A stretch of DNA of 64,000 bases from Hyphomicrobium facile (GTDB lineage: Bacteria; Pseudomonadota; Alphaproteobacteria; Rhizobiales; Hyphomicrobiaceae): NCBI RefSeq assembly GCF_900116175.1, contig NZ_FPCH01000002.1, forward strand, positions 248,001-312,000, written 5' to 3'. The notes below the pieces were generated by a model that worked only from the letters and a program-made list of their open reading frames with translations, searched no databases and was not told the DNA's origin. A program made the translations under genes and the position numbers. Position 1 is the stretch's first letter. Every line of letters starts with the position of its first letter. Below are positions 10,453-63,954 of this stretch, piece by piece.

Positions 10453-11655
10453 TCAGTTCAGGTCGCTAGGGTTTACGATGTGCGCGTGACTGGGGAGCTG
10501 GCCTTCAACACCGCGAAATTGGCCCGGTGGCGGCTTATCCATTGTTGAGCTTTTCATCAAGTGCAAGGTGGCCGCTCTAACAGCCGCTGAATCAGCTTGA
10601 GCGGCGGAAAAGTACTTGCTCGCGATGATGCTCGGCTTTTCGATAAGCGCATAAACAACCGCCGAAACAGCAATAGTTGCAAAGATTCCTACAATCACGA
10701 ATCCGACTTGATGGAGACCGCTTTCCCCGCTCACCAACTTTTGCAGAAGCGCGATTGTGATACCGCCGATCAGCATATGAAAGAGATAGATGCAGTAGCT
10801 GAGCGCGCCGAGCTCAGATAGCAGGCGGTTGCTGAGCATCTGAGACAGTGGACGCCACCACACGGCTGCCATTAGCAGAAGCGATGACGCCAAGCTGGCG
10901 AGCACGTAGGAATCTCTGGAGAAGCCGAATGCCGCCAGCATTACGCCGGCGTTGAGCCAATAGAGCGCCAGCGCGCCGCGCACTCTGCACAATGTCAGCG
11001 CAGCAAGGATGCCGCCGAGGAAGGTGTGAAGATGGTGGTACAGCCATTGTTCGTCGAGTGACACCAGGTTGGCAAGGCGTAAGGCAGACGCTGCGATAAG
11101 CAGGAGGGCAACGGCACAAAAGGCGATATCGCGAGGCAGCCCCTGCTCTTCGAATCGATTGAGCAAAAGAACGATTAGCGCAAAGAATACGTAGAACTGT
11201 ACCTCAACGCCAAGCGTCCAAGCCACGGGAAGGTAGAGTCTTGCGTTGAGAGGCAGGAAGTAAAATATATTCTTGCTCATCTCTACGGCGCTGCCCTCAC
11301 GCACTGGGAAGATGTCCAAACTTGAGATACTGAGCAGAAGAGGTACACCCAAAAAGTAGGCCGCAAGGGCCGTCCAGTAGGTGGGATCTAAGCGGACGCT
11401 GCGCCTAATAAAATACGTGCACACTGCTTTTGATGAGTTGATGGTGCGGTCGTTGTAAAGCGTGTACGCAATGACGAATCCTGAGATGACGAAGAACAAT
11501 TGGACACCGAATCTCCCCCAGACCGAAGCCGTATTGAAAGCCGACGGCATCGAGTTGCTGACCAGAACGCCGCCATTTTGTGTGTAAGTGTGGAACCAAG
11601 CGACACTTAAAGCGGCCATGCCTCGCAAGCCGTCAACGCTGCGAACCTTTTGCAT
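10453..11655 (-). CDS. Acyltransferase 3 family membrane O-acyltransferase
   Basis: About 400 residues with the acyltransferase-3 pattern: N-terminal RSVDGLRGMAALSVAWFH with catalytic His, then about ten hydrophobic helices, including FFVISGFVIAYTLY and VEVQFYVFFALIVLL. Family members (OafA, NodX, ExoZ) move acetyl or other acyl groups onto sugars at the inner membrane. It probably acetylates the polysaccharide or its lipid-linked unit. ATG 11655 is taken as start. An in-frame TTG at 11673 has a better-placed AAGGG and cannot be excluded. The 256-bp stretch between this gene and the next upstream gene shows nothing recognisable. It is one of two such enzymes in the locus, suggesting two modification sites. 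Confidence 0.85.
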   Translation of the reverse strand: MQKVRSVDGLRGMAALSVAWFHTYTQNGGVLVSNSMPSAFNTASVWGRFGVQLFFVISGFVIAYTLYNDRTINSSKAVCTYFIRRSVRLDPTYWTALAAYFLGVPLLLSISSLDIFPVREGSAVEMSKNIFYFLPLNARLYLPVAWTLGVEVQFYVFFALIVLLLNRFEEQGLPRDIAFCAVALLLIAASALRLANLVSLDEQWLYHHLHTFLGGILAALTLCRVRGALALYWLNAGVMLAAFGFSRDSYVLASLASSLLLMAAVWWRPLSQMLSNRLLSELGALSYCIYLFHMLIGGITIALLQKLVSGESGLHQVGFVIVGIFATIAVSAVVYALIEKPSIIASKYFSAAQADSAAVRAATLHLMKSSTMDKPPPGQFRGVEGQLPSHAHIVNPSDLN

Positions 11656-44236: not shown

Positions 44237-45994
44237 CTATGGCGTAGGAGGAAGCTGGAAGTAATAGTGCGATGAGAGAACGACACCGGCTGCCAGGAGG
44301 AGCGTAAGGTAGGGAAGGAACCCAGCGCGGCGTTCACCCAAATCCTGGCTCTTGAGATCCAGGTCTTCGAGCATGTGGTTCGGGAATTTGCCGCCATCCT
44401 GAATGTAGTGCCGATAGAGGAACACCGGGATGATCAACGCGGCGAATATCAACCCGTACCAAAGTGCATTCGGATTGCCCCATACTTTGGCGCCCGCTCC
44501 CATGAGTGCAAGGTTTACGAAGCCAAGGAACGCACCAAGCGCGACGAGCCAGTTCGGCGCGCGGTAGGGACGCGGGATATGCGGGCTATCGATGCGGTGA
44601 ATCCAGGTCGACTGCAGGTTCAGGAAGATGAAAAGCATGTAGCCGACATTCGAGATCGACAGGATCAAATAGTAGGCGGTGGCGTCCGAGGCAGCGAACG
44701 TCAGCAGACCGAGATTGAAGACCAAGTCCGTCCACATGGCCCGGGTCGGCGCGCCATGCTCGTTGACGTGTCCGAGGTATTTCGGGAGCCAGCCATCGAC
44801 GCCACCCTGGTAGAGGGTACGCGAAGAACCAGCCATCGCCATCATGATCGCGAGGATCAAGGCGAGGATCATCATCATCTCGAGGAGATGGACGACGATC
44901 GCGTTGTTCCCGCCTACCATGTCGCCCATGGCTGCTGCAACGCCCGTTCCGTCGACGATGCCAGGCTGCGTCATGCCTTCAAGGCCGAGATGCCCTTGGA
45001 ATGAGGCCGCGACGAGCGAGTAGACCACGACGCAAAGGATGCCCGCGGCGATGATCGCTTTCTTCGTGTCAGCAGCGGGATTTTTGAATTCACGCGTATA
45101 GCAAACGGCCGTCTCGAACGCGTAGCTCGACCAGCCTGCAATGAACAGCGCGCCGAGGAACATGGTCCAGCCGGCATTGTCCCAGGCCCCGTTTGGGGGG
45201 ACCAAAGGCGTGAAGTTCGAATATTCGACGTTGCCGGTAAGAAACGGCACGATGCCGACGATCAGCATCGGCACGATCACGAGCAGTCCGATCCACATCT
45301 GGATGCGGGCCGTTCCGAGAATGCCGCGATGCTGTACAGCGAAAGTGGCGAGCATCAAGGCCGCGCCAATGAAGAACGTTGCCCCGACCTCGATCTTCGC
45401 CAAGCCGAAGAACGAGAAATCCAAAAGCTTAAATGAGCGGATGAATGGCGTTGCATCTGCGGTCAGCGCGGTGATTGCAATGTTGGCCGCCTCTGCGCCC
45501 GACTTGCCGGCAATCGCTGCTGCATTCGACGCATCTTGCAGCCACGCAAGCACTTGCGGAGACTCCGCCGTAAATGAGGGGAGTGGCGCGATCGCATTGA
45601 GAATGTATCCGGCGGCGACGGCGCAACCGAGCGACAACACCGGCGTCCAGGCAAACCAATTGCACCAGACGGAAAGCGGCGCGATGAGCTTGCTGTAGCG
45701 CAGCCACGCGGCAGCGCCGTAAACAGCCGCTCCGCCCGACTTGTTTGCAAACAGCCCGGCGATTTCGGCGTAGCTGTAGGACTGGATCAGGCCCATCAGG
45801 ACCGAGATCATCCACACGAGGAAGGCAAGCTTGCCTGCCGTCGCCCCCATCCCGCCGATCGAGATCAAAACCAGCGCTGGAACGCCACTGGCGATCCAAA
45901 AAGCACCTTTCCAGTCTAGCGTTCGATGCAGGCCATGGGTGTCGGCGCTCGCGGCGCCCACACCCATGTCCCGCGTTTGTGTCGCGATGGTCAT
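44237..45994 (-). CDS. APC-superfamily amino acid/amine permease
   Basis: A 585-residue permease with 12 or more hydrophobic helices. The N-terminal helix 1 region has FWIASGVPALVLISIGGMGA with the Gly-rich break used for substrate binding; SYAEIAGLFANKSGGAAVYG is typical of APC transporters. Large polar insert near residues 145-185. Members import amino acids, putrescine or related amines with protons. Substrate is unknown, but it is divergent from an XRE-cupin (PuuR-like) regulator and near amine-ligase and oxidase genes, so an amine or N-methylated amino acid is likely. ATG 45994; two operator-like palindromes lie 68-102 bp upstream. Confidence 0.88.
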   Translation of the reverse strand: MTIATQTRDMGVGAASADTHGLHRTLDWKGAFWIASGVPALVLISIGGMGATAGKLAFLVWMISVLMGLIQSYSYAEIAGLFANKSGGAAVYGAAAWLRYSKLIAPLSVWCNWFAWTPVLSLGCAVAAGYILNAIAPLPSFTAESPQVLAWLQDASNAAAIAGKSGAEAANIAITALTADATPFIRSFKLLDFSFFGLAKIEVGATFFIGAALMLATFAVQHRGILGTARIQMWIGLLVIVPMLIVGIVPFLTGNVEYSNFTPLVPPNGAWDNAGWTMFLGALFIAGWSSYAFETAVCYTREFKNPAADTKKAIIAAGILCVVVYSLVAASFQGHLGLEGMTQPGIVDGTGVAAAMGDMVGGNNAIVVHLLEMMMILALILAIMMAMAGSSRTLYQGGVDGWLPKYLGHVNEHGAPTRAMWTDLVFNLGLLTFAASDATAYYLILSISNVGYMLFIFLNLQSTWIHRIDSPHIPRPYRAPNWLVALGAFLGFVNLALMGAGAKVWGNPNALWYGLIFAALIIPVFLYRHYIQDGGKFPNHMLEDLDLKSQDLGERRAGFLPYLTLLLAAGVVLSSHYYFQLPPTP

Positions 45995-46061: not shown

Positions 46062-46096
46062 ATGCATTATATGCAAGTATTTTGCATAGACTGCAT
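46062..46096. promoter_or_regulatory. Two operator-like palindromes, TTGCA-N5-TGCAA type
   Basis: ATGCATTATATGCAA (46062-46076) and TTGCATAGACTGCAT (46082-46096) each match TTGCA-N5-TGCAA with one mismatch. Their centres are 20 bp apart, close to two helix turns. They sit midway between the divergent APC permease and XRE-cupin genes. Exact copies of the palindrome occur at 51407 and 54499. Operator function is inferred. Confidence 0.65.
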
Positions 46097-46244
46097 CTTG
46101 AAATTTTCGATATTCTGTTTGTTTTGCAGTCGCGAAGAGCAATAAATGGGCGCTTATTGCACGTGCGTTGGCCACCACGACGGTGTTTGCTTTCGAGCCG
46201 GCCCGCTTTAATGGATAATTCGAGAACTCAGAAAAGGGCGACGA

Positions 46245-46916
46245 ATGACAAAAGAAAAGGCCGGCCTCAAAGCGCGGCCCACAACGCGAAAGTCGTCTGC
46301 CGAGAAGGCCGCCGTCAACGAGCTCAACAATCGCCACGACTTGGCGCATGTTCCGCTGGAGCAACGAATAGGCGCTGTCATCAAGCGCCGAAGGTTGGAG
46401 TCAAATCTCACGCTCTCCGATCTCAGCACCGGCGCGGGGCTCTCGAGCGCGATGCTCAGTCGAATTGAAAACGGCATGGCGACCGCAAGTCTCGACGCTC
46501 TCGAGCGCTTGTGCGCCGCCGTCGGCATTGGGCTGTCGGATCTTTTCAAGGAAACAGAGACCAAGCAGGGCAGTGCGCAACTCGTGAAGCGCACCGAACA
46601 GATGGAAGTCGTTCGCGTCGGCACCAAGTTTGGCCACACATATCGCCTTCTCTCCTATGACCGGGGACCGCGAAAGCTGTTCGAGCCGTTCTTCATCGAG
46701 ATGGACAAGAAGAGCGAGACGTATCCCCGCTTCGCCCACCCTGGCACCGAGTTCATCTACATGCTTCAGGGGAGAATGGAGTACCGCTTCGGCGAACATA
46801 CGTATCTGATCGAGCCCGGCGATGCGTTCACATTCTCCGGTGAGGTCGTGCACGGACCGGAGAAGCTTCTCGACGATCGGATCAAGTTTCTCGCGATCAT
46901 CTTTTACGGCGAATAA
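46245..46916 (+). CDS. XRE-cupin transcriptional regulator (PuuR-like)
   Basis: A 223-residue regulator. The N-terminal 40 residues are basic and disordered. The XRE helix-turn-helix spans about 45-105 (RIGAVIKRRRLESNLTLSDL, recognition helix in SSAMLSRIENG). A C-terminal cupin domain follows (about 135-220: AHPGTEFIYMLQGRMEYRFG, LIEPGDAFTFSGEVVHGPE). This domain pair is that of PuuR and related repressors that sense polyamines or small organic acids. Divergent from the APC permease gene with two palindromes between them. Likely controls this cluster, including the ligase, Mgs-like genes and oxidoreductase, which carry the same palindrome. Confidence 0.87.
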   Translation: MTKEKAGLKARPTTRKSSAEKAAVNELNNRHDLAHVPLEQRIGAVIKRRRLESNLTLSDLSTGAGLSSAMLSRIENGMATASLDALERLCAAVGIGLSDLFKETETKQGSAQLVKRTEQMEVVRVGTKFGHTYRLLSYDRGPRKLFEPFFIEMDKKSETYPRFAHPGTEFIYMLQGRMEYRFGEHTYLIEPGDAFTFSGEVVHGPEKLLDDRIKFLAIIFYGE

Positions 46917-46931
46917 GCCGTTTTCGCCGGC

Positions 46932-46963
46932 GACGCCGCCCCGTCGTGGACCAGGGCGGCGTC
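46932..46963. terminator. Strong hairpin between convergent genes
   Basis: GACGCCGCCC (46932-46941) and GGGCGGCGTC (46954-46963) form a perfect 10-bp GC-rich stem with a 12-nt loop. It separates the convergent regulator and mgsC-like genes. Neither side has a clear U-tract, so it may act as a bidirectional barrier or with Rho. Confidence 0.5.
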
Positions 46964-46984
46964 ACACACCCGCTGACGAACGCT

Positions 46985-48322
46985 TCAGAATCCCGGCGAT
47001 CCGGGGATCCAGTTCGTGCCGGCCAGCGGCACTCTCGCCATAGCGGCAGCTTCCATGGTGAGAGCGACCAGGTCTTCCGGCTCGAGGTTGTGGAGGTGGT
47101 TCTTGCCGCAAGCGCGAGCCAGCGTTTGCGCCTCCAGCGTCAGAACCTTCAGGTAGTTCGCCAGCCTGCGGCCAGCGGCGACAGGATCGAGCCTCTCCAT
47201 CAGTTCCGGCGTCTGCGTGGTGATGCCGGCCGGATCCTTGCCTTCGTGCCAATCATCGTAGCAGCCGGCCGTGGTGCCGAGCTTGTTGTACTCGGCTTCC
47301 CAGCGCGGATCGTTGTCGCCAAGGGCGACGAGCGCGGCGGTTCCGATCCCGACAGCATCGGCTCCGAGTGCCAAGGCTTTCGCCACGTCGCCGCCGTTGC
47401 GGATACCGCCGGAGACGATGAGCTGCACCTTGCGATGCATGCCGAGGTCCTGAAGCGCTTGCACGGCAGGGCGAATGGCCGAGAGCAGCGGTATGCCCAC
47501 ATGCTCGATGAAGACCTCCTGCGTCGCCGCCGTTCCGCCCTGCATGCCATCAAGGACGATCGCGTCGGCGCCCGACTTCACCGCCAGCTGAACATCGAAG
47601 TAAGGCCGGCTGGCGCCGATCTTCAGATAGATCGGCTTTTCCCAGTCCGTGATTTCGCGCAGTTCGTTGATCTTGACTTCCAGATCATCGGCGCCCGTCC
47701 AATCCGGATGCCGGCACGCAGAGCGCTGATCGATGCCCTTCGGCAGCTGACGCATCTGCGCGACCCGATCAGAGATCTTCTGGCCGAGCAGCATGCCGCC
47801 GCCGCCGGGCTTCGCTCCCTGACCGATGACGATTTCGATCGCATCGGCGCGGCGCAGATCGTCGGGGTTCATACCGTAACGCGACGGCAGATATTGGTAG
47901 ACGAGATATTTCGATTGGCCGCGCTCTTCCGGTGTCATGCCGCCATCGCCCGTCGTGGTCGACGTGCCCGCGAGACTCGCACCACGGCCCAAAGCCTCCT
48001 TGGCGTTGGCCGAGAGCGAACCGAAGCTCATACCCGAGATCGTAATCGGAATGGAAAGCTTGATGGGCTTCTTTGCAAATCTAGAACCGATGACGACTTC
48101 GGTGCCGCATTTTTCGCGATACCCTTCGAGGGGGTAGCGAGACATGGATGCGCCGAGCAACAGAAGATCGTCGAAATTCGGCATCCGGCGTTTCGAGCCG
48201 CCGCCGCGAATATCGTAGATGCCGGTTGCCGCGGCACGCCGGATTTCGGCGAGCGTCGCGTCGTCGAATGTCGCCGACTTACGAGGCGGCGTTCCGAGCC
48301 AGTTTCTCTGGTGCTCTGTCAT
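46985..48322 (-). CDS. FMN glutamate-synthase-like subunit (MgsC/GlxD)
   Basis: A 445-residue protein matching the FMN/synthase domain of glutamate synthase. Visible: SIPITISGMSFGSLSANAKE near residue 90, the glycine-rich AIEIVIGQGAKPGGGGMLLG near 165, KPIYLKIGASRPYFDVQLAV, then GADAIVLDGMQGGTAATQEV near 263 and LIVSGGIRNGGDVAKALALG. Homologues are MgsC (N-methylglutamate synthase) and GlxD. It would form the third part of a split glutamate-synthase-like enzyme with the two genes upstream. Start ATG overlaps the previous stop (TAATG). Substrate cannot be settled from sequence. Confidence 0.85.
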   Translation of the reverse strand: MTEHQRNWLGTPPRKSATFDDATLAEIRRAAATGIYDIRGGGSKRRMPNFDDLLLLGASMSRYPLEGYREKCGTEVVIGSRFAKKPIKLSIPITISGMSFGSLSANAKEALGRGASLAGTSTTTGDGGMTPEERGQSKYLVYQYLPSRYGMNPDDLRRADAIEIVIGQGAKPGGGGMLLGQKISDRVAQMRQLPKGIDQRSACRHPDWTGADDLEVKINELREITDWEKPIYLKIGASRPYFDVQLAVKSGADAIVLDGMQGGTAATQEVFIEHVGIPLLSAIRPAVQALQDLGMHRKVQLIVSGGIRNGGDVAKALALGADAVGIGTAALVALGDNDPRWEAEYNKLGTTAGCYDDWHEGKDPAGITTQTPELMERLDPVAAGRRLANYLKVLTLEAQTLARACGKNHLHNLEPEDLVALTMEAAAMARVPLAGTNWIPGSPGF

Positions 48323-49011
48323 TAGTACGCTCCGGCATTATCGATATTGAAGTTGTAGAGCTTCCGCGCCGAGCCATAGCGGCGGAATTCGGAGACATCG
48401 ACCTTGTGGATTTCTCCTGCTGCTTTCAGAAGCTCGCCAAGCTCCGCCTTGTGTTCGTCGCGCATCTCTTTCTCGATGCAATCGGCGCCCAAACTGGCGA
48501 CTGGTCCGCGAACATAGATGTGCGCTTCGTAAATCGAATCGCCGAGCGCTTCGCCCGCTTCTCCGAATACGACCAAGCGGCCGTTCTGACCCATGAACGC
48601 GGAGAGATGGCCGATGTCGCCTTTGACGACGATATCGATGCCCTTCATCGAAATCCCGCATCGCGCCGATGCGTTTCCTTCGACGAGAAGGAGCCCGCCT
48701 CTCCCGGTCGCGCCGGCGCTTTGGCTGGCGTCCCCTTTGACGTGGATACGTCCGGACATCATGTTTTCACCGACGCCCTGCCCCGCACTGCCGTCGATCA
48801 CGATGTTGGCGTACTTGTTCATGCCGCCGCAGAAGTAGCCGACATTGCCGCCAATGTTCACCGTGATGGGCGCATCGACGCCGACCGCGATCGAATGCTC
48901 GCCGGCGGGATTGGCGATGGACCAAAGGGTTTCGTTGGTGTCCTTACCGAGCTTGTGCAGAGCTGCGTTCAACTCGCGCACTGACGTTTCTGCTAGATCA
49001 ACGTTCGGCAT
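48322..49011 (-). CDS. GXGXG-domain glutamate-synthase-like subunit (MgsB/GlxC)
   Basis: A 229-residue protein corresponding to the C-terminal beta-helix (GXGXG) domain of glutamate synthase. It shows the repeating Gly pattern: ITVNIGGNVGYFCGGMNKYA, VIDGSAGQGVGENMMSGRIH, KGDASQSAGATGRGGLLLVE. ATG 49011 shares one base with the upstream stop (TGATG); reading from 49086 would run back into that gene. In MgsABC and GlxBCD this subunit bridges the amidotransferase and FMN parts. Both ends are overlapped, so the three genes are one translational unit. Confidence 0.85.
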   Translation of the reverse strand: MPNVDLAETSVRELNAALHKLGKDTNETLWSIANPAGEHSIAVGVDAPITVNIGGNVGYFCGGMNKYANIVIDGSAGQGVGENMMSGRIHVKGDASQSAGATGRGGLLLVEGNASARCGISMKGIDIVVKGDIGHLSAFMGQNGRLVVFGEAGEALGDSIYEAHIYVRGPVASLGADCIEKEMRDEHKAELGELLKAAGEIHKVDVSEFRRYGSARKLYNFNIDNAGAY

Positions 49012-49907
49012 CAGGCGTGCTCCCAGAAGTAGACGGTTGCGGGCTTTGGCTCCCACACGCGCGCGGTCTTGATGCCGGGCAGGCACGTGAGAGTTTTGTA
49101 TTCGGAACCGAACGCGACGTACTCGTCCGTTTCGGCCATGACAGCCGGCTTGCAGGCGATCGGATCTCTGAGGACACCGAAGCCCGTCTCCGTGCCGACA
49201 ACGAAGGTGAAGAAGCCGTCGAGGTCATCGAGGCTGGATTTCAAGGCTTCGCTGAGCGTCTGTCCGTTCTTCATCTGTCGCGTCAGATAGCCGGCTGCGA
49301 CCTCGGTATCGTTCTCGGTGCGAATTTTGATACCTTCCCGCCGCAACTCGCGGCGGAGCGAAGCATGATTGGACAGCGATCCGTTATGAACCAGGCACTG
49401 ATCGGTGGCTGTCGAGAACGGATGCGCGCCGTTGGTCGTCACGGCAGACTCCGTCGCCATGCGCGTATGCGAGATGCCGTGCGTACCGCTCATCTTTGCG
49501 ATGTCGAATTCGCGGGCGACGTCGTCGGGGAAGCCGACTTCCTTATAAATCTCGAGCCGCTGACCTTCGCTCATGATCGTGACATCCGGCAGATTCTTTG
49601 CCAGCCACGCCTCGGCGCGAGGAACGTCTTCCGTTTTTACCGTGACGACCGCGTGTGAGTGGCGCACGCTGACCTGGCCGCCGCCGATCGCCTCCACCAG
49701 CAGCTTGGCGGCGCGCGCGATGTCGACTTCCGCAGTGCTGCCTGAGATCGTCAATTTGGTTTGACCGGCCGCGCCGTTTCCGTAGATGGCAAACCCCGCC
49801 GAGTCCGGACCCCGGCTGCAAAGCGTCGAAGTCATCTTCGCGAGAAGCTCGCCGAGCCTCGGCTCTAGTTTCGGATCCTTGATGAAAAGGCCCGCAATTC
49901 CACACAT
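49011..49907 (-). CDS. Class II glutamine amidotransferase-like subunit (MgsA/GlxB)
   Basis: A 298-residue N-terminal-nucleophile amidotransferase domain. MCGIAGLFI places Cys2 as the nucleophile; SRGPDSAGFAIYG, GISHTRMATESAVTTNGAHP and HNGSLSNHASLRREL follow, as in GltB/PurF glutaminases. It provides the amide-hydrolysing part of the split glutamate-synthase-like enzyme. In the N-methylglutamate pathway the substrate is gamma-glutamylmethylamide rather than glutamine. It lies 28 bp after the glutamine-synthetase-like gene. Whether it acts on glutamine or a gamma-glutamylamide here is unknown. Confidence 0.87.
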   Translation of the reverse strand: MCGIAGLFIKDPKLEPRLGELLAKMTSTLCSRGPDSAGFAIYGNGAAGQTKLTISGSTAEVDIARAAKLLVEAIGGGQVSVRHSHAVVTVKTEDVPRAEAWLAKNLPDVTIMSEGQRLEIYKEVGFPDDVAREFDIAKMSGTHGISHTRMATESAVTTNGAHPFSTATDQCLVHNGSLSNHASLRRELRREGIKIRTENDTEVAAGYLTRQMKNGQTLSEALKSSLDDLDGFFTFVVGTETGFGVLRDPIACKPAVMAETDEYVAFGSEYKTLTCLPGIKTARVWEPKPATVYFWEHA

Positions 49908-49935
49908 ATCTTTGTCTCCAACTCAGCGTGGTTGT

Positions 49936-51333
49936 TCAGAAGAAGCTCAAGTAGCGTTTCGTCTCCCAGTCGGAGACGTGGCGGTGGTAGTCGATCCATT
50001 CGTCACGCTTGTGGGAGACGAACTCGTCGATGAAATCGGCGCCAAGCGCAGACCTGAAGAAGTCGCTTTGCTCGAGAGCTGTGATTGCTTCGCCAAGCGA
50101 CTGCGGCAGCACGTCGATCTTGCGATCCGCAATCTCGCGCGGCGTCAGAGCATAGAAGTTGATGTTCTGTGGCGGTCCCGGATCGAGGTTGCGATCGATC
50201 CCGTCGAGGCCGGCTGCAATCAACGCCGCCTGCGCAAGATACGGGTTCATGCCGGAGTCGCCGACGCGCAGCTCGATGCGTCCGTAAGGAATGCGCACCA
50301 TTGCGGTCCGATTGTTGTCGCCGTACGCGACGAAGACCGGCGCCCAGGTCGTACCCGACGCCGTTCGGCCAACGACGAGGCGCTTGTAGGAATTGACGGA
50401 CGGCGCAAGCAAGGCCGTGAGAGCCTTCGCGTGCGCCAGAATTCCCGCCGTGAATGAATAGGCTAGCTTCGAAAGCCCCATGCCACTCGTGTCGGACTTG
50501 TCGTGGAATATATTCCTTCCCTCAGCGTCGGCGAGCGAGCAATGAATGTGCATGCCGTTGCCGGTCATCGAGCTCTTGGGCTTCGGCATGAAGGAGCAGA
50601 TGGCGCCGAGCTCATGCGCGATCTCTGCGGCCGCCATCTTGAACAAGATGATATTGTCGGCGGAGGTCACGGCGTCGGCGTATTTGAAGTTGATTTCGTA
50701 CTGGCCGTTCGCGTCCTCGTGATCGATTTGATAAACATCGATCCCTAGCGCCTGCAGGCTTTCCGTCACGCGTTCGAGGAAAACGCGGACTCGGGAGAGC
50801 CCCCGATAATCGTACGCGGGCTTCTGCAGACAGTCGGTATCGTCGAGCGGACAGACCGATCCATCGGCGGTACGTTGAAAAAGGCTGAACTCGGGTTCTA
50901 TGCCGGTGTTGAGCACCCAGCCGCGTTCGCTCAATCGTGCCGTCTGAGCCTTCAGAATGTTGCGCGTATCGATCGGATGCGGCTTGCCATCGACCGTCCC
51001 TGTGCCCATCACGCGCGCGTAGCCCGGCGCCCACGGCAAGAGCTTGAGCGTCGACAGATCTCCGACGAGCATGTATTCGGATTCATGCGGCTCTAGGCGA
51101 AGTCCGTGAACACCTCCTCCCGCAAATCCCACTCCGTCCGTCAATATATCTTCCAGATGATCGACCGGCACGGATTTGCTCTTGGCGACGCCGTGAATGT
51201 CGACAAACTGTGCAAGGACGTAGCGGATATGATTTTGCGTGAGGAATTGCTTCGCTTTTTGAAGGTCGAGTTGTTCTGGCGAGGCCTGTTGGCCTGGCGT
51301 CAGCCGCCAATTCCAGTGGTCGAGTGAGTTCAT
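49936..51333 (-). CDS. Glutamine-synthetase-like ligase (GlnT/GmaS/PuuA type)
   Basis: A 465-residue GS-superfamily enzyme. It has the N-terminal beta-grasp QNHIRYVLAQFVDIHGVAKS, EPEFSLFQ with metal-binding Glu near residue 145, IDHEDANGQYEINFKYADAV near 205 and MTGNGMHIHCSLADAEGRN near 255. Members join glutamate to ammonia (GlnT), methylamine (GmaS) or putrescine (PuuA) with ATP. Neighbouring MgsABC-like genes favour gamma-glutamylmethylamide synthetase; the PuuB-like oxidase and PuuR-like regulator point to another amine. ATG 51333 opens MNSLDHWNW; a longer frame to 51507 runs through the promoter. First gene of a four-gene leftward operon, with an exact palindrome 74 bp upstream. Confidence 0.85.
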   Translation of the reverse strand: MNSLDHWNWRLTPGQQASPEQLDLQKAKQFLTQNHIRYVLAQFVDIHGVAKSKSVPVDHLEDILTDGVGFAGGGVHGLRLEPHESEYMLVGDLSTLKLLPWAPGYARVMGTGTVDGKPHPIDTRNILKAQTARLSERGWVLNTGIEPEFSLFQRTADGSVCPLDDTDCLQKPAYDYRGLSRVRVFLERVTESLQALGIDVYQIDHEDANGQYEINFKYADAVTSADNIILFKMAAAEIAHELGAICSFMPKPKSSMTGNGMHIHCSLADAEGRNIFHDKSDTSGMGLSKLAYSFTAGILAHAKALTALLAPSVNSYKRLVVGRTASGTTWAPVFVAYGDNNRTAMVRIPYGRIELRVGDSGMNPYLAQAALIAAGLDGIDRNLDPGPPQNINFYALTPREIADRKIDVLPQSLGEAITALEQSDFFRSALGADFIDEFVSHKRDEWIDYHRHVSDWETKRYLSFF

Positions 51334-51406
51334 GCGAAACCTCGGACGTTTGGAGCCGCGCTTATGCGCTGTGCGTTTCTTCCCAGTCTCAGCGCATACA
51401 ATCAAC

Positions 51407-51421
51407 TTGCACGTAGTGCAA
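51407..51421. promoter_or_regulatory. Operator-like palindrome TTGCACGTAGTGCAA
   Basis: A perfect TTGCA-N5-TGCAA palindrome between the divergent ligase (51333) and FAD oxidoreductase (51489) genes. Twenty bases further on, TTGTACAA (51427-51434) is a weaker palindrome at the same spacing seen at 46062/46082. It would let one regulator control both directions. Binding is inferred from recurrence of the motif. Confidence 0.65.
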
Positions 51422-51488
51422 CTTATTTGTACAAGAATAAACGTCAGATGCGTGGAACTTCGCGCAAAGATCAGGGCCGCCACACACC

Positions 51489-52847
51489 ATGAATGACGAA
51501 ATCTCAAGCTCCAGCGGCATACGTGCGTTGGATCTCGCGCGCAGAAACGCCACGACAGGCGACCTCAAATTCAAGCCCTATTGGTGGGAAGCGGCCCCGC
51601 GTGCGCCGGAGGTGCGAAATCAATTCTTGCCGGCACGCGCCGATGTCGTGATTGTCGGCTCAGGCTTTACGGGCCTCTCCGCAGCCCTGACGCTTCTCAA
51701 GAGAGGCCGCTCCGTCATCGTCTTGGATGCCGGCGTGCCTGGAGTGGGCGCGAGCACCCGCAATGGCGGCCAGGTCGGAAGCGGCAACCAAAAATTTCGC
51801 GTCGCAAAACTCATCGCGTTGCGCGGCCGGCGGAAGGCGGAGGAGCTTCTGCGCGATGGCACACGCATGCTCGACTATATCGAGCATCTGATCACGACCG
51901 AGAACATCGATTGCGCCTTCTCCCGGTGCGGCCGCTTTCGCGGCGCGATGCAGCCCGAGCATTATGAAGCCATGGCGCGCGACATGGAGGATCTCCGCAA
52001 TATAGCAGGCGTCGAGAGCTTCATGGTGCCGAAGTCCGAGCAGCACAGCGAGATCGGGTCCGATGTTTTCTTCGGCGGTTCCGTTCTTCCGAATGATGCC
52101 TCGTTGCACCCCGCCCGCTACCACGCGGGATTGATGGAAAGGATCACCGCACTCGGCGGCGAAATCATCGGCAATGCGACGGTCAATGGCATCAAGCACG
52201 ATTACGACGGCTTCAAAATCCGCACCGCTATCGATGATATGACGTGCCGCGAAGTCATCGTCGCGACCAACGGATATACCGGCAACATCGTTCCCGAGCT
52301 CGGCCGGCGCATCGTTCCGATCGGCTCCGCGCTCATCGCCACGGACGAAATTCCGGAAGCGCTCTTTTCGACCTTGATGCCGAAGCTTCGCGTCTACGGG
52401 AATACCAATCGCGTATTCTACTATTATCGCGCGGCGCCCGGAGAACGGCGAGTCGTTTGGGGCGGCCGGGTCGGCAGGCTCGCGCCCGAAACATCCGCGG
52501 CCGCATATCGCCATTTGGCGAGAGACATGCTGCATGTGTTTCCCGCGCTTCGCGACACGGCCGTGACGCACGCGTGGACCGGCCAGATCGGATACACCTA
52601 CGATGAAGTTCCGCACATCGGCCGCACGGCCGGCGGGATTCACTTCGCGCTTGGATATTGCGGCACGGGCGTGTCGCGCGCCACGTACTTCGGTCACAAG
52701 ATCGCGCTCAAGCTTCTCCAAGATCCGGAAGGCAAGACCGCCTTCGACGATCTCGATTTCCCAAGCTTCCCCTTCCATCCGATTGCCAAGCGAGCCGTGC
52801 CGGTCGTCGAGACCTGGTATCGAATTCGCGACGCAGTGAACAAATAA
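51489..52847 (+). CDS. DAO-family FAD-dependent oxidoreductase (PuuB/OrdL-like)
   Basis: A 452-residue flavoprotein. An N-terminal YWWEAAPR segment, common in gamma-glutamylputrescine oxidase-like proteins, precedes the dinucleotide fold VVIVGSGFTGLSAALTLLKR near residue 53 and GASTRNGGQVGSGNQKF. The C-terminal part has RRVVWGGRVG and HIGRTAGGIHFALGYCGTGV, typical of the family. It oxidises a C-N bond of an amine or N-substituted amino acid, giving an imine or aldehyde. Co-oriented with RidA 17 bp downstream, which fits an imine-releasing reaction. It could stand in for the missing N-methylglutamate dehydrogenase (MgdABCD). Confidence 0.85.
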   Translation: MNDEISSSSGIRALDLARRNATTGDLKFKPYWWEAAPRAPEVRNQFLPARADVVIVGSGFTGLSAALTLLKRGRSVIVLDAGVPGVGASTRNGGQVGSGNQKFRVAKLIALRGRRKAEELLRDGTRMLDYIEHLITTENIDCAFSRCGRFRGAMQPEHYEAMARDMEDLRNIAGVESFMVPKSEQHSEIGSDVFFGGSVLPNDASLHPARYHAGLMERITALGGEIIGNATVNGIKHDYDGFKIRTAIDDMTCREVIVATNGYTGNIVPELGRRIVPIGSALIATDEIPEALFSTLMPKLRVYGNTNRVFYYYRAAPGERRVVWGGRVGRLAPETSAAAYRHLARDMLHVFPALRDTAVTHAWTGQIGYTYDEVPHIGRTAGGIHFALGYCGTGVSRATYFGHKIALKLLQDPEGKTAFDDLDFPSFPFHPIAKRAVPVVETWYRIRDAVNK

Positions 52848-52864
52848 ACCTCGAAAGGAGCGAC

Positions 52865-53260
52865 ATGACAAAAACCGCCAACAAAAATCAGCGGCTCAAC
52901 GTTTCATCCGGTGGCGCATACGAATCCGTCTTCGGATATTCGCGCGCCGTGCGCGTGGGGGACGACGTGCACGTTTCTGGAACCTGTGCACCCGCCGGGA
53001 ATGAGAAAAGCGACGTGTACACGCAAACGCGCGCTGCGCTCGCGATCATCGAGAAAGCTCTCGCCGATGCCGGAGCAACGACGAGCCAGGTCGTTCGAAC
53101 GGTCGTCTACCTTCGCGATATCAACGACGCCGAAGACGTTGCCAGAGCCCACCTCGAAACGTTCGATGCGATCCGGCCGGCCAGCACGCTCGTGCAAGTT
53201 ACGTCCATGATGCGGCCCTGGCAAAAGGTTGAGATCGAGGCCTACGCAAAGGTCGTCTGA
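52865..53260 (+). CDS. RidA-family enamine/imine deaminase
   Basis: A 131-residue YjgF/YER057c/UK114 protein. It has YSRAVRVGDDVHVSGTCAPA, YTQTRAALAIIEKALADAGA, VVRTVVYLRDIND and RPASTLVQVTSMMRPWQKVE, the last near the Arg and Glu that bind the substrate carboxylate. RidA proteins hydrolyse reactive imines and enamines released by flavin or PLP enzymes. AAAGGAG lies 5 nt before ATG 52865. It follows the FAD oxidoreductase by 17 bp, so the two are almost certainly co-transcribed. Confidence 0.92.
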   Translation: MTKTANKNQRLNVSSGGAYESVFGYSRAVRVGDDVHVSGTCAPAGNEKSDVYTQTRAALAIIEKALADAGATTSQVVRTVVYLRDINDAEDVARAHLETFDAIRPASTLVQVTSMMRPWQKVEIEAYAKVV

Positions 53261-53331
53261 GCAGGGTGCAAAAAGGCGCCTTGCCCAGACGCTATGACAA
53301 TTGGGCCTCTACCGGCAGACCGCGCTATTTC

Positions 53332-54141
53332 TTAGCGGCCCCAGATGTCGCCCGAGCCCCTCTCGTCCCATGCGTCGTCGGGCTTCGGAGCGGCAGCGGG
53401 CTGGCCACGATTTATGGCCTTCTTCAGATGGTCAAGGGCGTCAACATCGACGATGCCCTTGCCGCCTGACGCGTCGCCCATCCGCTTGCGCATCTGCGAG
53501 GTGAACTTATCAGAGCGGGCATAGGCCTTGGCATCTTGGAAGTCAGAACAAGCATAGCGGATGTTCGACGCCGACATAGCCGTCATGGTTTCTGACAGCG
53601 CCACTTCATCAAGTCCGATGTTCACGACGTTGGCAGGACGGATGCCCATACGAGTGCCCTGCTGCGCCGAGGCGAGACCGGCCCCCAAGAACAGGATCAG
53701 CCAACCCTTTTCCTGGCGATCGGCGATCAAAGCCTCGACGCTTTCATAGGTGTGCTTCCGGCTCTGGTTTTCTTCGCCGTCGGTGACCACAACCAGGATC
53801 GCCTTCTCGCCATTGCTGGCCGCGAGCTTGGCGTCGATCTTGCCGATGCCGCGCCCGACCGCGTCGAGCAACGGGGTGCCTGAACGGGGCACGAAGTCGG
53901 CGGCAGTGAGTTCCGGCGCGTCGACGATCTTGCCGTCGCGGATCGTGTCGATGGACTCGGTGTCGAAAATCACAAGCTCGAAATCGGCGTCCTTCAGCGT
54001 CGCGTCGGCTTTCGAGTCCTTCAGGTATTTGTTGACGGCGGTGATCGTCGCTTCGCGGCAGCTCGACATCGAACCGGAGCGATCGAGAACCATGATGATG
54101 GTGGTGTTGCCGGTCGCGTCTGTCGTGCTCGTTTCGGTCAT
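53332..54141 (-). CDS. von Willebrand factor A domain protein
   Basis: A 269-residue cytoplasmic protein (no signal peptide) built mainly of one VWA domain. The MIDAS metal site is complete: DRSGSMSS near residue 20, the Thr in PRSGTPLLDAVG near 86, and the Asp in VVTDGEENQ near 120. The C-terminal 60 residues are charged and Gly/Pro-rich. Such stand-alone VWA proteins mediate metal-dependent protein contacts; the partner is unknown. It lies 12 bp downstream of an XRE-type regulator gene, forming a two-gene operon convergent with ridA. Confidence 0.85.
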   Translation of the reverse strand: MTETSTTDATGNTTIIMVLDRSGSMSSCREATITAVNKYLKDSKADATLKDADFELVIFDTESIDTIRDGKIVDAPELTAADFVPRSGTPLLDAVGRGIGKIDAKLAASNGEKAILVVVTDGEENQSRKHTYESVEALIADRQEKGWLILFLGAGLASAQQGTRMGIRPANVVNIGLDEVALSETMTAMSASNIRYACSDFQDAKAYARSDKFTSQMRKRMGDASGGKGIVDVDALDHLKKAINRGQPAAAPKPDDAWDERGSGDIWGR

Positions 54142-54153
54142 GCGGGTATCCTT

Positions 54154-54495
54154 TCAGGTTTCCCAGGCGTCCTTCTTCCCAAGCACCCGATGGATGGCCG
54201 CGAGCTTCGTCTCCGTTTCGACAAGACGCCTGCGGAGGCTCTGAACTGCGGCCTCCTCATGTGCGCCAAGCACGGCGGCCGGGTCGAGGTGCACTTCCTC
54301 GCAGGCGATCAGGAATTGGCGCAGCGTCATTTCGGTGCTGCCGCTTTCCAGCCGCGAGTATTGGCTGTTGGACAATTCCATCGCCTCGGCGATGGCCGTT
54401 TGTGTCAGCCCCGATAACCGTCTGGCATCACTCAAGCGCTCGCGTATCTCGGCGAGGCGTTCATCGACGGTTTTTGACTTCGAGTGCTTCGACAT
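54154..54495 (-). CDS. XRE-family DNA-binding protein
   Basis: A 113-residue regulator: HTH about residues 12-65 (LSGLTQTAIAEAMELSNSQY, recognition helix SNSQYSRLESGS), followed by a helical tail (VQSLRRRLVETETKLAAIHR) that may dimerise as a coiled coil. ATG 54495 is chosen; ATG 54504 and TTG 54513 are also in frame. An exact TTGCA-N5-TGCAA palindrome starts 4 bp upstream of ATG 54495, and a near-match lies beyond it, so the gene is probably autoregulated or controlled by the XRE-cupin protein at 46245. Confidence 0.82.
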   Translation of the reverse strand: MSKHSKSKTVDERLAEIRERLSDARRLSGLTQTAIAEAMELSNSQYSRLESGSTEMTLRQFLIACEEVHLDPAAVLGAHEEAAVQSLRRRLVETETKLAAIHRVLGKKDAWET

Positions 54496-54498
54496 GGA

Positions 54499-54536
54499 TT
54501 GCATGTAGTGCAATAGGCAACTTGCTTCAAGTGCAA
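54499..54536. promoter_or_regulatory. Tandem operator-like palindromes at XRE-VWA operon
   Basis: TTGCATGTAGTGCAA (54499-54513) is a perfect TTGCA-N5-TGCAA palindrome. TTGCTTCAAGTGCAA (54522-54536) matches with one mismatch. The first covers the presumed ribosome-binding site of ATG 54495, so binding would block expression. The central TGTAG is close to CGTAG in the 51407 copy. Confidence 0.65.
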
Positions 54537-54764
54537 CATGTCGATTTTATCGTTTTGGCCCGCCATCGGCCTCAAGCGCGTGCAGTGCGATCGTCCCCCG
54601 GATTTTGCCGGGTAATGGGGAGACCGCTCGGCTGCCGCCGTAAATCGGCACGCCGAAAAGCAATATGCTGATGAATTTCCGATGAGACTTGGTTTGCATC
54701 GCCTGCACGGCGATACGCTCGGAGCAGCATGCAGATGCGCTTTGGCGCTACACTATGAAAAGAT

Positions 54765-62866: not shown

Positions 62867-63129
62867 CATCGCGTGTCAAGCCGAATTGCAAAAGAGTCAA
62901 ATATAGATATTGCGGCGTGACACCAATTTATCGAATGCTGCAAAGCGTCAATAATTGAGGCCATTTTATCCGTTTGCCGATTCATATCGCGCCTGCGCAC
63001 GCCTCAGTGAATCACATCCATGGGATGTAAAAATATTCTATATTAGTGTAGTTTTTCCGCCTTGCCGGCCGCCACGCCCTGTTGCTAAAGACTAATCCCC
63101 GTTTCTTCTCGAGGAGCGCTGGCCCAGCC

Positions 63130-63954
63130 ATGTCGCGCGGCTCTTATTCCCCAAGACTGAAGATCTCCGACGTTGCCCGTCTCGCCGACGTGTCGGTTTC
63201 CACTATTCGCGTGTGGGAGGCAAAGGGACTCCTTAAACCCAGCTATAGCGACGGCGGCCGCCGCCTCTACACGACAGCCGACGTCGAGAAAGCGCTTCAG
63301 ATCAAACGCATGCGAAGCGGCCGAGGAATGCCGCTTACAGATATCGCTTCTACTTTTAAAAATGACTCAAACGGCAAGTCATCCGTCGACAAAAACGCCA
63401 CCGCCAGCGTTTCGGACGTTGGGCCTATCTTGCGCAAGTTGCGCACGGAAAAGCGTTTGACATTGAAAGAGGTCGCGGATGCCGTCGAGCTGACGCCGGC
63501 AGAGCTTGCGTCGACCGAACGAACTTCGATGGGCCTTGATGTTCCCGCCTTGAAGCGGCTCGCGACATTTTTTGGCACAACACTGAATGGCATCATGGGC
63601 GCCGCTGTCCCGACAGATGGCAAGGAAATCGTTACCCGTGATCGTGGCGTAATCTTGCCCCGTCTCGGTGTGGGCTTGATGGTCGAGCGGTTCGGATCCG
63701 GCGCCGACATGATGGACTGCCAGCGCTGGACCATCGAGCCAGGGGTTAGCAGCAACGGATCTTATCGGCACGAGGGCGAGGAATTCATTGCCGTCTTGTC
63801 CGGTACATTTGAGATCACTCTCGCGGATGAGCGCGTTTACGTCCTGACCCAGGGCGACACGATTTATTTCAAGAGTGGGATTCCGCATTCTTGGCGAAAC
63901 CCAGGCCCGATTAAAACCGAAATGATTTGGATCTGCGCGGGCCACTCCTTCTAA
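63130..63954 (+). CDS. MerR-XRE-cupin triple-domain regulator
   Basis: A 274-residue regulator with three domains. The first is a MerR-type winged HTH (about 9-80: LKISDVARLADVSVSTIRVW, GGRRLYTTADVEKALQIKRM). The second is an XRE-like HTH (about 98-155: LRKLRTEKRLTLKEVADAVE). The third is a cupin sensor (about 195-274: YRHEGEEFIAVLSGTFEITL, QGDTIYFKSGIPHSWRNPG). XRE-cupin proteins are common; an added MerR domain is unusual. It is divergent from the oxidoreductase-dehydrogenase-importer operon and likely regulates it. ATG 63130 is preferred; TTG 63082 is an in-frame alternative. The last 46 bases of the window hold nothing recognisable. Confidence 0.85.
   Translation: MSRGSYSPRLKISDVARLADVSVSTIRVWEAKGLLKPSYSDGGRRLYTTADVEKALQIKRMRSGRGMPLTDIASTFKNDSNGKSSVDKNATASVSDVGPILRKLRTEKRLTLKEVADAVELTPAELASTERTSMGLDVPALKRLATFFGTTLNGIMGAAVPTDGKEIVTRDRGVILPRLGVGLMVERFGSGADMMDCQRWTIEPGVSSNGSYRHEGEEFIAVLSGTFEITLADERVYVLTQGDTIYFKSGIPHSWRNPGPIKTEMIWICAGHSF

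Follow-up and report, generated by a model that had tools for sequence, protein, structure and literature searches.

When a short palindrome recurs in several neighbouring promoter regions, does it mark one regulon, or can it stem from circuits that have nothing to do with one another? The question is raised by a 64,000-nucleotide stretch of the Hyphomicrobium facile genome (contig NZ_FPCH01000002.1, positions 248,001 to 312,000; hereafter the window), in which the sequence TTGCA-N5-TGCAA, exact or with one mismatch, lies upstream of the genes of an amine-catabolic cluster and of the operon beside it. The cluster comprises genes for an APC-type permease, a regulator that joins an XRE-type helix-turn-helix (HTH) to a cupin domain (hereafter XRE-cupin), mgsABC-like proteins, a glutamine-synthetase-like ligase, a flavin adenine dinucleotide (FAD)-dependent oxidoreductase and a Rid-family protein; the adjoining operon encodes a small XRE regulator and a VWA-like protein. 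An earlier note on this DNA had proposed that one of the two XRE proteins, probably XRE-cupin, binds at all of these promoters and thereby ties the VWA operon to the amine cluster. On the sequence evidence we favour, with a probability of roughly 0.8, a different answer, in which two independent local circuits would lie side by side and the likeness of their half-sites would be due to chance. Most likely, control by XRE-cupin would be limited to the amine cluster, and the small XRE protein would act on the operon that encodes it.

All five sites that had been described were found again, and in the promoter regions to which they had been assigned: exact palindromes at 51407-51421 and 54499-54513, and one-mismatch copies at 46062-46076, 46082-46096 and 54522-54536, the pairs being spaced 20 bp (46062/46082) and 23 bp (54499/54522) from centre to centre. 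The list of one-mismatch copies was correct for these three and had omitted two more, at 10552-10566 and 54694-54708. Dinucleotide shuffles of the window (n=100) contained the exact motif 0.10 times on average, which is near the chance figure of 0.06 per 64 kb given previously, and one shuffle of the 100 reached the two copies observed. With up to one mismatch allowed, there are seven matches in the window versus 2.17 expected, a number attained by 0 of 100 shuffles. Two exact copies within 64 kb are locally unusual. The conserved features, as described below, are larger than this motif.

Within the amine cluster, the sites belong to arrays of half-sites. In the gap between the ligase and FAD oxidoreductase genes, the window reads TACAA-N5-TTGCA-N5-TGCAA-N5-TTGTA, that is, a half-site each 10 bp, with the exact palindrome at 51407-51421 included; in the gap between the permease and XRE-cupin genes it reads ATGCA-N5-TGCAA-N5-TTGCA-N5-TGCAT, which amounts to two one-mismatch palindromes. 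As the centres of the latter are 20 bp apart, two dimers would be expected to sit on approximately the same helix face. We examined the conservation of these arrays in 103 genomes of the family, that of H. facile (G000) included; G and L numbers are our handles for genomes and loci. A close XRE-cupin orthologue (at least 70% identity) is present in 17 of the 103, own genome included, the best match elsewhere reaching no better than E 2e-43 and about 41% identity. In 17/17 the XRE-cupin gene has beside it those for the permease, FAD oxidase and Rid protein, and the ligase and mgsABC genes lie in between in 15; in G037 and G039 the FAD oxidase gene stands directly beside that for XRE-cupin. The gap between the FAD oxidase gene and that for the ligase or XRE-cupin has the exact palindrome in all 17 genomes (shuffled mean 0.01), and the outer TACAA is exact, completing the four-half-site form, in 11. 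When these gaps and that of a further genome, G014, were aligned on the exact palindrome, the columns of the palindrome were fixed by that choice; TTGTA at +20 was not so fixed, and is found in 18/18, most columns beyond it being variable. A fifth half-site position reads ATAAA in the window, TGCAA in G034 and CGCAA in G039. The permease/XRE-cupin gap contains the exact palindrome in four of the 17 (shuffled mean 0.06), a palindrome with at most one mismatch in all of them (0.81) and the three-half-site array in 14 (0.01).

Scanned as the pattern WTGCA-N5-HGCAA-N5-TTGYA, the array matched 20 of the 103 genomes, namely 17/17 of those with a close XRE-cupin orthologue and 3/86 of the others (G014, G086 and G097), while a reversed control of the pattern gave four single matches in four genomes. 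Within the 17, matches are confined to the two cluster gaps (in G050, G051 and G069, to the ligase/FAD gap). The match in G014 again falls between ligase and FAD oxidoreductase genes, the former being cut off by the contig end; those in G086 and G097 have no cluster genes within their 3-kb loci. At one mismatch, no further target proved recurrent in 10 of the 18 genomes that have the array in a cluster gap: G000, G042, G045 and G047 yielded one non-cluster match each, versus eight matches of the control. Conserved palindromic sites in the gaps beside the regulator, with few targets elsewhere, are the pattern expected of XRE-cupin local repressors, and the protein itself has the N-terminal XRE HTH (HTH_3 at 46-100) and C-terminal cupin (Cupin_2 at 151-218, both above Pfam cut-offs) that define local metabolic repressors of this type. 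The proposal that XRE-cupin is the binder appears likely for the two amine-cluster gaps. It finds no support at the XRE-VWA promoter, which the array pattern failed to match in any of the 103 genomes and, in the window, even when two mismatches were allowed.

The signal at the XRE-VWA promoter is another one, with a conservation of its own. Paired TTGC-N7-GCAA palindromes, 22 or 23 bp apart, stand upstream of the small XRE gene in all six copies of the operon, which are distributed over five genomes (G000, G045 with two, G047, G048 and G060). In 6/6 copies the 42 bases preceding the ATG of the small XRE gene contain both members of the pair, the nearer one being three or four bases from the ATG (three in the window). 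A scan of the 103 genomes with the pair pattern recovered these six copies and single places in G070 and G097, and matches to the small XRE protein of at least 59% identity were found in the same five genomes only, those in nine others being weak (36% or less). Palindromic sites over the gene's own promoter, conserved together with the gene, are what an autoregulated small XRE operon would present. The operon adjoins the amine cluster in G000 and G060 and is some 7 kb from it in G045; its three remaining copies (G047, G048 and the second of G045) are at other loci. It is found in 4/17 cluster genomes and in one genome without the cluster, G048, which has the pair, the small XRE and the VWA genes, yet no array, and whose best XRE-cupin match is 35% identical. 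No VWA match was obtained at E 1e-3 in 13/17 amine-cluster genomes. Conservation upstream of orthologous operons thus holds, separately for each of the two systems.

Since each operator set tracks its own regulator gene, two local feedback circuits are the simplest reading of the locus. From the gene content, site anatomy, conservation and co-occurrence set out above, and from the lack of a further recurrent target in the genomes scanned, we infer the binding proteins, repression, inducer and dimer arrangement as follows. In the two divergent intergenic regions of the cluster, XRE-cupin would bind TTGCA/TTGTA half-sites repeated every 10 bp, neighbouring dimers probably sharing one helix face. 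It would repress the permease gene, the XRE-cupin gene itself and the ligase-mgsABC and FAD oxidoreductase-Rid operons, and repression would last until the cupin domain detects a small molecule, which is probably the amine or a glutamyl derivative. The small XRE protein would bind the paired palindromes over its own promoter region, whose spacing is 22-23 bp, and would repress the XRE-VWA operon. Although the two proteins are unlike in their HTH segments, both would use TTGCA-type half-sites; the apparent link between the amine cluster and the neighbouring operon is probably a coincidence of similar signals.

Several observations weigh against two such circuits, or against the patterns by which they were recognised. 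A scan of the whole genome (4.43 Mb), which the earlier note had suggested as a check, found the exact motif at six places and its reversed control at seven, i.e. at the same density, so that the ten bases alone mark no genome-wide regulon, and such a regulon of the short motif is rejected. Four exact copies lie outside the window, two of them on contig 5; one (L003) is inside an open reading frame (ORF) of 567 residues that by eye resembles a secretion ATPase, and another (L004) is in no clear gene. The exact array is absent from the permease/XRE-cupin gaps of G050, G051 and G069, of which G069 and G050 retain TGCAA-N5-TTGCA and G051 has a one-base variant. G014 possesses the array with no close XRE-cupin orthologue, its best match (41%) being on another contig, and the control of the pair pattern matched one genome, G007, at two places. 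The patterns were derived from the sequences before being counted, and the genomes are related, so that the co-occurrence counts are not independent. Last, the sites at 51407 and 54499 differ by a single spacer base, which renders cross-binding physically plausible; in the window organism we regard it as possible, albeit at long odds.

The operon may also be considered as a unit in its own right. C-terminal D-x-W motifs are found in both the small XRE and the VWA protein. K-D-x-W is unchanged across 6/6 small XRE proteins, and two D-x-W motifs occur no more than 17 residues from the end of the VWA protein in 7/7 members of its subfamily (the six paired copies and L040), compared with 0/14 more distant VWA relatives having D-x-W in the last 39 residues (the sequence of L046 being taken as far as an in-frame stop codon). 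A frame resembling XRE precedes the VWA gene in 6/6 known copies and in 0/15 others, L040 having just 49 bases of upstream sequence. These sequences suggest that the small XRE and VWA proteins may act together. It is conceivable, though we consider it unlikely, that XRE-VWA constitutes a small relocating module whose repressor would be controlled by the VWA protein, or by a partner able to read the same tag, and that beside the amine cluster the module, its site being near-identical, would be cross-regulated by XRE-cupin.

The recurrence of one palindrome in three neighbouring promoter regions, the single spacer base that separates 51407 from 54499, and the position of XRE-VWA beside the cluster in G000 and G060, or about 7 kb away in G045, would also be accounted for if one regulator, be it XRE-cupin or the small XRE protein, bound all five sites and made one regulon of the VWA operon and the amine cluster. 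We reject this reading on co-occurrence and site anatomy, and hold it to be quite unlikely. Neither the same operator architecture nor the shared presence of the target operons in relatives was observed in the family genomes: the two kinds of site are unlike in spacing and in their flanking half-sites, and at two mismatches the array pattern still finds no match in the XRE-VWA promoter of the window; the double site (6/6 copies) is retained in G047, G048 and the second copy of G045, where the amine cluster is elsewhere or lacking, and most cluster genomes yield no VWA match at E 1e-3. The tie between the VWA operon and the amine cluster through a common regulator, as originally put forward, is not supported.

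The palindromes could alternatively be plain promoter elements, their conservation being due to a role of TTGCAN as first hexamer in divergent promoters. Inspection by eye places TTGCAN about 17 bp from TAnnnn on both strands of 51397-51431, and upstream of the small XRE gene TTGAAG (in the far palindrome, -35 to -30 from the ATG) and TACATG (in the near one, -12 to -7) are likewise separated by 17 bp, so placed that the gene, by eye, may be leaderless. Yet no sigma-70-type promoter reached the scan threshold in the three regions, and the terminator-like matches in one of these scans were the palindrome itself; general elements should turn up outside these gaps as well in a set of 103 genomes, and an overlap of operator and promoter also fits repression. 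We therefore judge this explanation very improbable. An IlvY-like regulator of the LysR type, encoded elsewhere and binding TTGCA-N5-TGCAA repeats, has least to recommend it and is hardly to be credited: the ilvY-ilvC gap is predicted to hold three such 15-bp repeats as sites of IlvY (PMC5002191, in the part available), but none of the ten genes from the permease to the small XRE, to which the search for LysR genes was limited, encodes a LysR domain at E 1e-3 in Pfam, and both site types track the neighbouring XRE gene across the 103 genomes.

Comparison with known systems places XRE-cupin among familiar proteins and sets its operator somewhat apart from theirs. A sequence search of the PDB with XRE-cupin returned weak HTH or cupin matches (best E 1.6e-5). 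PuuR of Escherichia coli, which governs putrescine utilisation, is an XRE-cupin protein beside glutamylation-type amine genes, as is the protein of the window; the target genes differ, and the latter scores 29.8 bits on the PuuR equivalog model NF007408, far below the cut-off of 211. According to the accessible portion of a study of Pseudomonas aeruginosa XRE-cupin repressors by DNA affinity purification sequencing and RNA sequencing (PMC7901475), these proteins, PauR apart, have one or two neighbouring targets, share no targets, and recognise palindromic sites where motifs could be made. The window protein resembles PauR, PsdR and ErfA, as portrayed there, in its HTH and cupin domains, its palindromic sites, its adjacent targets (mostly one or two in P. 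aeruginosa) and its association with a metabolic cluster; it is unlike them in that its operator is a 10-bp-period TTGCA/TTGTA array over an mgsABC-type amine cluster, with repression and sensing being predicted. In Ruegeria pomeroyi, the gmaS-mgsABC genes of methylated-amine catabolism are similar targets controlled by TmaR, which is described in the excerpted text as an AraC-type activator rather than an XRE-cupin protein (PMC13390433). E. coli IlvY, whose predicted sites lie in a divergent gap and share the same 15-bp inverted repeat with those of the window, differs in its LysR family membership and its ilvC target (PMC5002191, same part), which suggests that the TTGCA-n5-TGCAA repeat arises in unrelated regulator families. 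The section of a paper on N-methylglutamate and methylamine that was available (PMC7574528) marks an XRE gene in a figure legend. In the literature that we searched, the motif TTGCA-N5-TGCAA appeared only in the IlvY prediction, as far as that source was accessible, and within those same searches we encountered no report of a TTGCA operator for an XRE-family cupin regulator.

The locus illustrates that a short palindrome common to neighbouring promoters can stem from two separate circuits, and that spacing, flanking half-sites and cross-genome co-occurrence can separate them. It also offers a well-defined candidate operator for an XRE-cupin regulator, as yet uncharacterised, that belongs to a second amine cluster of the mgsABC type. 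The XRE-VWA operon beside it apparently regulates itself, and a C-terminal motif is common to its two proteins. The features concerned are collected in Table 1.

Table 1. Genes and predicted operators of the amine cluster and the adjoining XRE-VWA operon (positions are those of the window; FMN, flavin mononucleotide).
Feature	Position	Strand	Evidence
APC-type permease	44237..45994	-	NF053774 812.5 bits (cut-off 690); PF13520
Operator array 1, permease/XRE-cupin gap	46062..46096	.	three-half-site array in 14/17 orthologous gaps, shuffled mean 0.01; predicted
XRE-cupin regulator; proposed binder of arrays 1 and 2	46245..46916	+	HTH_3, Cupin_2 above Pfam cut-offs
mgsC-like (glutamate-synthase FMN domain)	46985..48322	-	PF01645 297.8 bits
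mgsB-like (GXGXG domain), start codon uncertain	48322..49008	-	PF01493 43.1 bits
mgsA-like (class II glutamine amidotransferase domain)	49011..49907	-	PF13522 70.9 bits
Type III glutamine-synthetase-like ligase	49936..51333	-	TIGR03105 632.3 bits (cut-off 469.6)
Operator array 2, ligase/FAD gap	51397..51431	.	exact palindrome in 17/17 orthologous gaps, shuffled mean 0.01; predicted
FAD-dependent oxidoreductase (DAO family)	51489..52847	+	PF01266 191.6 bits
Rid-family gene	52862..53260	+	PF01042 83 bits
VWA-like gene	53332..54141	-	DxSGS motif by eye; weak TIGR02442 at 12-131; phrog_7371
Small XRE regulator; proposed to bind own promoter only	54154..54495	-	HTH_31, HTH_3 above Pfam cut-offs
Double operator of XRE-VWA operon	54499..54536	.	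two palindromes 23 bp apart; predicted

With respect to the individual genes, the permease passes the curated cut-off of the trimethylamine N-oxide permease equivalog NF053774, its substrate being a prediction, and the three genes between XRE-cupin and the ligase are those that we take to be mgsC, mgsB and mgsA. The VWA-like protein matched no Pfam family at E 1e-3, the VWA label resting on a DxSGS motif read by eye, and it matches the phage family phrog_7371 (function unknown) at E 1.5e-34. A search of the PDB with the small XRE profile gave no match. In a sample of 385 genomes of the class, drawn evenly and searched at strict cut-offs by which relatives may be missed, XRE-cupin (E 1e-50) and the small XRE profile (E 1e-10) matched their own genome only, and the VWA profile (E 1e-30) one genome beyond it, G285. 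A contig search with the VWA protein returned five relatives of 34-39% identity, all titled as actinobacterial metagenome-assembled genomes.

Some features of the surroundings may be added. In G045, about 7 kb separate the Rid gene from XRE-VWA (L052:3609-10071), and the close adjacency seen in the window is therefore not kept there; by eye, the interval holds a repetitive autotransporter-like ORF of 1614 residues and a Crp-like gene. The XRE-VWA copies of G047 and G048, and these two only, have a neighbouring ORF that resembles diaminopimelate decarboxylase (lysA-like; by eye). The H. facile genome contains a second, paralogous mgsABC-type cluster (L121; G000:C3:446000-459000). It has an XRE-cupin protein and a ligase of its own, 37% and 38% identical, respectively, to those of the window, and by eye it includes genes like those for sarcosine oxidase; the 13 kb of this locus have no palindrome at up to one mismatch. 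Elsewhere in the window, at 63082-63954, an ORF of 290 residues joins, by eye, a MerR-type HTH, an XRE-type HTH and a cupin domain, and its neighbours are polyamine-type ABC transporter, aldehyde dehydrogenase and oxidoreductase genes.

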